Shown here piece by piece: positions 55,237-57,049 of a stretch of DNA of 64,000 bases; within the stretch, counting starts at the first letter, position 1, and each line of letters starts with the position of its first letter. The notes under the pieces were generated by a model that worked only from the letters and a program-made list of their open reading frames with translations, searched no databases and was not told the origin of the DNA. The position numbers were made by a program, and so were the translations under genes. The stretch comes from Leptolyngbya sp. NIES-3755 (GTDB lineage: Bacteria > Cyanobacteriota > Cyanobacteriia > Leptolyngbyales > Leptolyngbyaceae): NCBI GenBank assembly GCA_001548435.1, contig AP017308.1, forward strand, positions 310,001-374,000, written 5' to 3'.

Positions 55237-55477
55237 AACTTTTGTCACCGTGGTAGCAAAAACTTTTTTACATCGTTGCAGTCTGGAAAGACAAGTGCAA
55301 CTGGATACGGATTACAGGTGGTTATTGGAACAGCGGTGTGAACAGAATCGCACTTATCCCAGAGAACGAAAACAACTGATGATTACAATACGGTGAATCG
55401 TAGAATTTTGATCAGTCGTTAAGAGTTTATTAATCAATATGAGAAAATGGAGCGGCTAAAACCAGCCATTGAGTCGA

Positions 55478-57049
55478 ATGCGGATGAGCTATTCTGTTAC
55501 GAAATCACCAGAATCGAGCTATAAAAATGCGTTCAAGGCGCAGGTGCGATCGTATTTCGATCGAATCGCTCTTGATCTGGATGCTTGGAACCAACGCAAT
55601 CGATATTACTATCAGGATCTCGATCGCTTTCATCGGTTTTTTATTCCCCAAGGTAGCCGTGTTTTAGAAATTGGCTGTGGAACGGGAACGTTGCTTGCCG
55701 CGCTCGATCCAGAGATCGGGGTTGGGATTGATTTTTCTCGATCGATGATTGATTTAGCACAGGCGAAATATCCGCATTTACAGTTTTATTGCTTGGATGC
55801 GGAGACGTTGACTCCGGAAGATTTGCCCGAAACGCAGTTCGATTTTATTGTGCTTTCTGGGGTGTTGGGGCACTTAAGTGATGTGCAACAAGTTTTGGCA
55901 AATTTGCAGCCATTTTGCCATTCTCGAACGCGGCTAATTTTGACGTTTCACAATTTTTTGTGGCAGCCGCTTCTTCATTTCGCTGAGAAAATTGGGCAGC
56001 GTCGTCCTCAACCGCCTCAAAGTTGGTTATCGATGGATGACTTGCTGAATTTGCTACAGATTACGGGGTACTTGCCGCTTCGATCGAGTCGTCGTTTTCT
56101 GTGCCCGAAACGAATTCCCCTGATTGCGCCGTTCTTCAATCGAGTACTGGCGCATTTGCCGATCGTGAATCATTTTTGCTTGACAAATTGCATTGTTGCA
56201 AAACCTCAGAGATTGCCCTCACCCCCAGCCCCTCTCCCTGAGGGAGAGGGGGGTCAGATCTCCGGTTCCCTCTCCCTCAGGGAGAGGGCTAGGGTGAGGG
56301 CAGCAACCGACTTAAACGAAGCTCCAGAATATTCCTGTTCAGTGATCATTCCGGCTCGAAATGAAGCGGGAAATATTCGAGGCGCGATCGAGCGTTTACC
56401 CCAACTCGGAAGTCACACTGAAGTCATTTTTGTCGAAGGACATTCACACGACGACACTTGGAACGAGATCCAGCGCATCGTACAAGAAGGACATCCGAAA
56501 TTTACGATCAAAGCCTTTCAGCAAACGGGGAAAGGAAAAGCAGACGCGGTTCGATTGGGATTTGCAGAAGCGACTGGCGATATTTTGATGATTTTGGATG
56601 CGGATTTGACCGTACAGCCGGAAGATCTGCCGCATTTCTATGAAGTGATATCGAGCGATCGAGGCGAATTCGTCAACGGATCGCGACTGGTTTATCCGCG
56701 ATCGGGAAAAGCGATGCCTTGGTTGAATAACTGGGCGAACAAATTCTTTAGCCTAATGTTTTCATTTTTATTAGGACAATCGATCAAAGATACGCTCTGT
56801 GGTACAAAAGTGTTGCGGCGAAGCGATTACGAAAAAATTGCAGCGGGACGAAGCTACTTCGGCGATTTCGATCCGTTTGGCGATTTTGATCTTTTATTTG
56901 GCGCAACAAAGTTAGGATTGCATCTCGTTGATGTGCCTGTGCGATATCAGCCTCGAACTTATGGCGAGTCGAATATTGCTCATGTTCGCGAAGGATTGAT
57001 TCTACTAAAGATGTGTATCTATGCCTCAAGGAAGATTAAATTCTTTTAG
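55478..57049 (+). CDS. Fusion of SAM methyltransferase and family 2 glycosyltransferase
   Basis: A 523-residue protein. Residues about 25-245 are a class I methyltransferase (VLEIGCGTGTLLAAL, GIDFSRSMIDLAQ). Residues about 283-515 are a GT2 glycosyltransferase with a GT-A fold (CSVIIPARNEAGNIRGAI, DxD motif DADLTV, GTKVLRR). Between them, residues about 246-275 are encoded by a palindromic repeat element at 56214-56302. It probably acts in lipid-linked glycan or polysaccharide work with the next gene (inference). ATG 55478 is used; alternatives are 55484 and TTG 55469. Confidence 0.88.
   Translation: MRMSYSVTKSPESSYKNAFKAQVRSYFDRIALDLDAWNQRNRYYYQDLDRFHRFFIPQGSRVLEIGCGTGTLLAALDPEIGVGIDFSRSMIDLAQAKYPHLQFYCLDAETLTPEDLPETQFDFIVLSGVLGHLSDVQQVLANLQPFCHSRTRLILTFHNFLWQPLLHFAEKIGQRRPQPPQSWLSMDDLLNLLQITGYLPLRSSRRFLCPKRIPLIAPFFNRVLAHLPIVNHFCLTNCIVAKPQRLPSPPAPLPEGEGGQISGSLSLRERARVRAATDLNEAPEYSCSVIIPARNEAGNIRGAIERLPQLGSHTEVIFVEGHSHDDTWNEIQRIVQEGHPKFTIKAFQQTGKGKADAVRLGFAEATGDILMILDADLTVQPEDLPHFYEVISSDRGEFVNGSRLVYPRSGKAMPWLNNWANKFFSLMFSFLLGQSIKDTLCGTKVLRRSDYEKIAAGRSYFGDFDPFGDFDLLFGATKLGLHLVDVPVRYQPRTYGESNIAHVREGLILLKMCIYASRKIKFF
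56214..56302. repeat. Palindromic repeat element inserted in frame in a coding sequence
   Basis: Outer arms TGCCCTCACCC (56214-56224) and GGGTGAGGGCA (56292-56302) are perfect complements, and each half holds its own hairpin (CCCTCTCCCT ... AGGGAGAGGG). This CCTCTCCCTGAGGGAGAGG type is a widely dispersed bacterial intergenic palindrome. Here it is translated as about 30 residues (PAPLPEGEGG, SLSLRERARVRAA) without breaking the frame. Confidence 0.92.

Follow-up and report, generated by a model that had tools for sequence, protein, structure and literature searches.

A palindromic element within the linker of a methyltransferase–glycosyltransferase gene of Leptolyngbya and its possible DUF559 nuclease partner

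Results

A palindromic element lies in frame between two enzyme domains

The window analyzed here is a 64,000-nt stretch of the Leptolyngbya sp. NIES-3755 genome (AP017308.1 of assembly GCA_001548435.1, positions 310,001–374,000), in which a gene joining a class I methyltransferase domain to a family 2 glycosyltransferase (GT2) domain carries a palindromic element between the two (Table 1). A first-pass annotation of this DNA had placed a palindrome in a single open frame at this point; its coordinates proved exact and the frame continuous. The frame runs for 526 aa from a TTG at 55469, through in-frame ATGs at 55478 and 55484, to a stop ending at 57049, free of the frameshift that the annotation had feared might split the gene. 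The terminal arms of the element (56214–56224 and 56292–56302) are complementary over all 11 nt. Core and right extension together span 108 bp, or 36 codons, in the window gene and likewise in two further genes, which we take from reading their sequences to be CheA-like (L116) and U32-peptidase-like (L129; G, L and C numbers are our handles for genomes, loci and contigs).

Table 1 Features of the element and its host gene (window coordinates)
Feature	Position	Strand	Basis or remarks
Methyltransferase–GT2 fusion gene carrying the element	55484..57049	+	Open reading frame, Pfam, orthologues; alternative starts 55478 or TTG 55469
Class I methyltransferase domain (Methyltransf_12)	55664..55915	+	Pfam; aa 66–149 of the 526-aa frame
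Palindromic element core (89 bp, near-palindrome)	56214..56302	+	Two inverted palindromes inside an 11-bp terminal inverted repeat; in frame with the gene
Left inner palindrome (21 nt, fully complementary)	56230..56250	+	
Right inner palindrome (21 nt, fully complementary)	56268..56288	+	
Right extension (19 nt)	56303..56321	+	Resembles the 19–20 nt after the CheA-like and U32-like gene copies (by eye, printed flanks)
Glycosyl transferase family 2 domain (Glycos_transf_2)	56339..56839	+	Pfam; aa 291–457 of the 526-aa frame

The 89-bp element folds to −76 kcal/mol as RNA (z −8.2) and to −41 as DNA (z −8.4), values matched by none of 200 shuffles in either case, and the window contains two matches to its inner motif (≤3 mismatches) where 0.02 would be expected. 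These results, together with the recurrence of the element across genus genomes described below, rule out a chance hairpin. An Rfam scan of the element returned 22 matches at E ≤ 1, none of which reached its own gathering score; the best, to mir-188 (42.1 bits against a gathering score of 72), was taken as a chance hairpin match, and an Rfam identity was rejected.

The element lengthens the linker of a gene fused without it

All seven genus relatives encode the methyltransferase and GT2 domains in one open frame of 489–520 aa that is free of the element. For a broader comparison, 106 orthologue rows were aligned, of which 98 are distinct when compared over the final 400 residues; they comprise 26 of the 29 loci of a first search and all 80 of a second. 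Each row required a single match spanning both domains, and three loci were dropped, one with a frame broken in the GT2 domain (L032) and two with distant GT2 matches (L034, L035). Rows came from cyanobacteria, Bacteroidetes, Nitrospira, Verrucomicrobia, candidate phyla and an archaeal bin, and the element-free fusion is also found outside cyanobacteria, in Bacteroidetes, Nitrospira and the archaeal bin. The region between the conserved blocks measures 61 aa in the window gene compared to 21–46 aa in the orthologue rows, of which 103 fall at 27–35 aa; the shortest value (L111) appears to stem from misalignment, and the two longest linkers (L050, L007) bear no resemblance to the palindrome. In the nearest relatives this region is 28 aa long, which gives the window gene a net gain of 33 residues. 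The element was found in only one of the aligned orthologues, the window gene, and the orthologue linkers are variable in sequence.

The first-pass annotation had offered two origins, a fusion of two genes by the element or the expansion of an existing linker, and had named an unrelated orthologue linker of the same length as grounds for doubt. Alignment with the element-free orthologues, fused and with much shorter linkers, bears out the second origin and removes that doubt. To judge from these comparisons, it is near-certain that the element was inserted into the linker of an anciently fused methyltransferase–GT2 gene. In an AlphaFold model (39 alignment rows) both domains are confident, and residues 241–280 have block means of 49–63 on the predicted local distance difference test (pLDDT). 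We infer that the host protein would be made with the element-encoded linker, for which the predicted tryptic peptides are LPSPPAPLPEGEGGQISGSLSLR and AATDLNEAPEYSCSVIIPAR, and that the lengthened protein would work.

The element is dispersed through the genome and the genus

Dispersal was assessed with a covariance model (R1) built from eight element copies. The 6.76-Mb genome of the host strain (four contigs) holds the element in at least 12 places at E ≤ 0.1 (150 of 174 candidates scored), along with a half copy at C1:2311894. R1 matches at E ≤ 0.001 were found in all eight genus genomes searched, the host's own included (G003 and G004 have a single place each), and the palindrome is therefore dispersed, as the first-pass annotation had proposed. 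The usual layout is two inverted palindromes with a short spacer, single units occurring occasionally.

Seventy genus copies were read with up to 3 kb on either side. Six lie inside open reading frames (ORFs) of at least 500 aa, with 140 aa or more of the frame to either side: in the host genome these are the window gene, the CheA-like kinase, one DNA methylase that holds two copies (L121) and an 824-aa ORF (L125), and outside it the U32-peptidase-like gene of G005. All six point the same way with respect to their gene, and five are read in the same codon phase. The copy in L125 (C1:3355348), a repeat-rich ORF, is the one in another phase.

Insert-free orthologues of the U32-like gene (G007, G000, G001 and G006) match the query up to residues 567–568 and again from 598–602, with 3–15 nt between; that of G006 has one stop. 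Insert-free orthologues also exist for the CheA-like kinase, and in the G006 kinase (L320) the same linker is occupied in frame by a doublet from another palindrome family, GCCCCCTAAATCCCCCA.

Element copies bracket a DUF559 module in a DNA methylase gene

The methylase gene of the host genome (L121/L207) contains a palindrome–DUF559–palindrome arrangement of 186 residues at C1:686859–687413, in frame, with two element copies bracketing the DUF559 domain at C1:687002 (687002–687316). Eleven orthologous methylases without the module (G072, G021, G081, G006, G036, G094, G068, G052, G124, G045 and G091) match the query to residue 453 and resume at residue 640. They are continuous but for 6–9 nt, and the gene of the host genome therefore holds a 186-residue in-frame module, placed just before the NPPF motif. 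In G082 the corresponding site is empty and a module of 74–76% identity lies at another position of that gene, from which it follows that such units occupy different sites. Pfam assigned only DUF559, the related MTES_1575 and methylase domains to the module of the host genome, with no Hint or splicing domain.

Palindromes flank DUF559 genes across cyanobacteria

A search for PF04480 in 116 genomes of the class gave 81 matches at E ≤ 1e-20 in 53 genomes, which with five strong genus hits make 86 DUF559 loci. Six loci with short flanks were dropped from the inverted-repeat test and kept in the class counts and tree analysis. An inverted repeat scoring at least 14 between the 400-nt flanks was present at 52 of 80 DUF559 genes compared to 5 of 284 random cyanobacterial intervals (control intervals were taken from cyanobacterial methyltransferase–GT2 neighbourhoods, and the genomes overlap only partly). 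Weak DUF559 hits (~24–35 bits) behave like other genes: none of ten had an inverted repeat of 13 or more, with L198 left out at a contig end.

R1 at E ≤ 0.01 matched 55 of the 86 DUF559 loci (366 kb) compared to 2 of 74 control loci (427 kb); a match at any point of a locus counted, so that some lie far from DUF559 (for example, L264 and L269). Among 34 other loci (144 kb), comprising DUF559-free methylases, weak DUF559 genes and orthologues of two other host genes, one was matched. The flanking palindromes were sorted by regular expressions into four classes, A (the window's), B, C and D. By this measure the same class stands on both sides of DUF559 at 54 of the 86 loci, compared to none of 710 control intervals, six of which contain any palindrome class. 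Within the genus, the strong DUF559 hits of G001, G003, G005 and G007 have class B flanks, and the PF04480 search gave no strong hit in G002, G004 or G006.

Palindrome class follows the DUF559 tree

A tree was built from 85 DUF559 domains, with few columns and weak deepest branches. Palindrome class follows this tree, as expected of co-inheritance: the four classes need four changes across the 52 rows in which both sides carry one and the same class (the minimum possible is three), and five once one-sided labels are added. When class, sidedness and embedding were combined into 18 labels, 35 changes were needed compared to a shuffled mean of 61.2, with none of 200 shuffles as low.

Embedding in long frames varied by class (one-sided labels included), from 24 of 38 units in class A and 3 of 6 in class D to 0 of 15 in class B and 0 of 16 in class C, where L261, truncated at the end of its contig, counted as not embedded despite a Type_ISP_C match in its ORF. 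Of the 37 ORFs in which DUF559 is accompanied by at least 80 aa, all but L216 were scanned, 36 in total. A methylase or restriction-modification family domain (Eco57I, MmeI domains, Type_ISP_C, DUF1156, N6 or N6/N4 methylase) was found in 30 of them, L232 being counted on a hit below the curated cut-off; L221, L226, L265, L283, L218 and L270 have none. We take DUF1156 to be methylase-related, presumably so in view of weak methylase hits in four of six such ORFs (L208, L233, L251 and L281; not L245 or L242). In L206 and L217 (class A) and L261 (class C), from three cyanobacterial families, the Type_ISP_C match resumes at profile position 182–183. Residues E21, D50, E61, D63, H67 and D74 of DUF559 are retained in all 28 embedded copies.

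Discussion

Relation to known palindromic repeats

Translated palindromes are an already known kind of sequence, represented by Rickettsia palindromic elements (RPEs), repetitive extragenic palindromes (REPs) and miniature inverted-repeat transposable elements (MITEs); the new part here is the likely DUF559 partner. RPEs were reportedly described by Ogata in 2000 and 2002. They are palindromic repeats of ~100–150 bp, found between genes and in frame in unrelated conserved genes, where they add an extra peptide; in the single enzyme examined, this peptide was judged to have no effect or a mildly deleterious one (PMC2229807, PMC10969869). The likeness to RPEs that the first-pass annotation drew is apt, the present element being a long palindrome (89-bp core, 108 bp extended) in frame in unrelated genes, compared by description and not by sequence; unlike it, RPEs belong to another organism and are not linked to a nuclease partner in the text available. 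Published accounts describe in-frame small palindromes in Rickettsia, Neisseria, enterobacteria, Thauera and others, including Correia and enterobacterial repetitive intergenic consensus (ERIC) elements and the QMITE of Coxiella. The first-pass annotation had called such events rare, which holds only in part, given these precedents in several bacteria and the 5 of 12 element places of the host genome that fall in frames of at least 500 aa. With its perfect 11-bp terminal inverted repeat, its length of 89–108 bp and no coding capacity for a transposase, the element also resembles a MITE.

A further comparison is with REPs. Intragenic GTAG/CGTC REPs occur in ORFs as singlets and inverted dimers, encode 20–30 aa and are recognized against shorter homologues (Di Nocera 2013, PMC3733652). 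The present palindromes were likewise recognized in ORFs by shorter homologues; unlike those REPs, GTAG is absent from all 70 copies in either orientation and CGTC occurs in three (L140, L179 and L181), of which L140 alone has it near an end (within 8 nt); the window copy has neither tag. REP doublets forming hairpins (REPINs) are described as non-autonomous inverted palindrome doublets whose cognate few-copy nuclease genes, the REP-associated tyrosine transposases (RAYTs), stand beside the same palindromes, with repeat–enzyme co-evolution proposed (Bertels and Rainey 2011, PMC3116915). The paired inverted palindromes around a short spacer, and singlets such as the half copy at C1:2311894, recall this pattern, and by analogy the element may work like a RAYT-dependent REPIN. 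We do not file it as one because of the tag counts and because no RAYT flanked by the same palindromes was found, R1 having no match at E ≤ 1 at the three Y1_Tnp loci of the host genome, which may include RAYTs. Unlike the REPIN–RAYT pair, the partner suggested here is DUF559, of the Vsr/EDxHD type, in place of an HUH tyrosine transposase, and the nuclease unit also occurs in frame within genes.

Taylor is said to have treated EDxHD/DUF559 homing endonucleases and inteins in 2011. DUF559 has been placed in the EDxHD homing-endonuclease family (PMC9403480). The likeness to EDxHD inteins lies in DUF559 as a homing-endonuclease domain and in weak intein or Hint hits, all below curated cut-offs, at four loci (L258, L268, L274 and L283, three of them in N6/N4 DNA methylases), which are perhaps inteins. 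Unlike an intein, the methylase module of the host genome has no splicing domain and would stay in the protein.

A DUF559 nuclease as candidate mobilizing enzyme

We consider it probable that the element was inserted into an old linker and that a DUF559 nuclease acts on these palindromes, with the short element as its non-autonomous derivative. A REPIN-like mobile element of ~108 bp with two inverted palindromes would have entered the short inter-domain linker in a stop-free codon phase and supplied ~36 codons (net +33 residues) of flexible linker rich in proline, glycine and arginine. It would have been retained where the linker tolerates length, with frame-breaking insertions being lost. The nuclease would recognize its cognate palindrome and promote the copying of palindrome-bounded DNA into new sites, and short doublets would be derivatives without the nuclease, mobilized in trans. 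DUF559 is the most likely mechanism because palindromes of the same class bound DUF559 genes and the unit stands in frame at different sites of one gene; that DUF559 is the mobilizing enzyme has, by association, a little less than an even chance.

There is a fair chance that the pairing with DUF559 makes this a new mobile system. Tentatively, we propose a new class of mobile element in which palindrome doublets would be spread by cognate DUF559 (Vsr/EDxHD-type) nucleases and not by HUH transposases, units would home in frame into DNA-methylase genes with their palindromes doubling as linkers, and nuclease-less derivatives would seed linkers elsewhere, that of the window gene included. Literature on DUF559 and related terms, as represented in part of one limited collection, makes no mention of palindromes paired with it. 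Elhai reportedly described small mobile repeats of cyanobacteria in 2008, and the present repeats may be described there without the nuclease.

Whatever the enzyme, the window gene extends in-frame palindromes to a cyanobacterium with clean element-free orthologues. Such palindromes have been described, in the sources consulted, without a known spreading enzyme, Rickettsia being the main case, and DUF559 offers a testable candidate. If the proposal is true, it would add a second repeat–nuclease partnership beside REPIN–RAYT and a way for proteins, most of all DNA methylases, to acquire nuclease modules and flexible linkers.

Several observations weigh against an insertion mobilized by DUF559. 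The role of DUF559 as mobilizer rests on association between sequences. Mismatched flanks taken from two different DUF559 loci reach an inverted-repeat score of 14 or more in 41 of 300 pairs, and classes A–D were written after viewing arms from part of the same loci. Beyond the loci with one class on both sides, 26 of the 86 carry a class on one side only, two carry different classes and four carry none. Only the host genome, among the eight genus genomes with the element, has a strong DUF559 flanked by class A; because the other seven do not, in those the partner would have to have been lost or overlooked, or to be a different enzyme. Neither the window site nor the methylase site shows a target-site duplication, the empty sites used for comparison coming from diverged relatives, and the fused state of the 106 orthologue rows is partly a product of the selection for both domains. 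Finally, the frames of the element are less often open than chance would give (stop-free fraction 0.287 compared to 0.378 in shuffles, for 65 copies of at least 80 nt), and coding copies therefore look like survivors of selection, not elements made for translation. The idea of an element built to be open in many frames finds no support in the same comparison.

Alternative explanations

A different reading makes the palindrome–DUF559–palindrome unit an adaptive module that turns a methylase into a one-chain restriction enzyme, with the palindromes as linkers or recombination junctions and stray copies as by-products. The prevalence of methylase or restriction-modification domains beside DUF559 (30/36) agrees with it, as do the retained conserved residues and the common point at which Type_ISP_C resumes after units of different DUF559 clades (L206, L217 and L261). 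We find it doubtful, since class B and C units are mostly standalone and yet share the flanking layout, and since short nuclease-free elements are far commoner than nuclease units and lie mostly outside long frames.

A conventional transposase (IS200-like, RAYT HUH, or DDE with matching ends) could instead move the element, which would then be an ordinary MITE or REPIN with DUF559 a mere neighbour. The inverted doublet and terminal inverted repeats of the element suit either kind, the host genome has three Y1_Tnp genes, and seven of eight genus genomes hold the element without class A DUF559. Chance neighbours, however, would not give a palindrome class that follows the DUF559 tree, nor the same class on both sides at 54 of 86 loci, and the three Y1_Tnp loci showed no R1 match (no search was made for DDE transposases with matching ends); we judge this explanation unlikely.

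That the linker palindrome was selected for a function, such as translational pausing at an mRNA hairpin or a useful longer linker, appears improbable. The hairpin is very stable, five of six coding copies share one phase, and similar 36-codon cassettes occur in three unrelated genes; against this, a single aligned orthologue has the element, orthologue linkers vary in sequence and the inserted stretch is modelled at low confidence. Lastly, the joining of two separate genes by read-through, suggested by the position of the element right between two domains, each of which can stand alone, has virtually no chance of being right, as the seven genus relatives and the other orthologue rows are fused without the element rather than split into separate genes.

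Additional observations

At the place where the window gene carries its element, the orthologue L007 (G025) has another linker expansion, an apparent tandem duplication (RPQNSV-T-RPQNSV). The second palindrome family, GCCCCCTAAATCCCCCA (≤1 mismatch), has 93 matches in the host genome and 405 in G003; it often forms inverted pairs ~88 nt apart, for example at C1:586110/586198 and C1:745900/745988 of the host genome. Tandem palindromic arrays are present in two DUF559 loci, L226 (1980–2483) and L248 (1887–2495), with periods of 138 and 164 nt.
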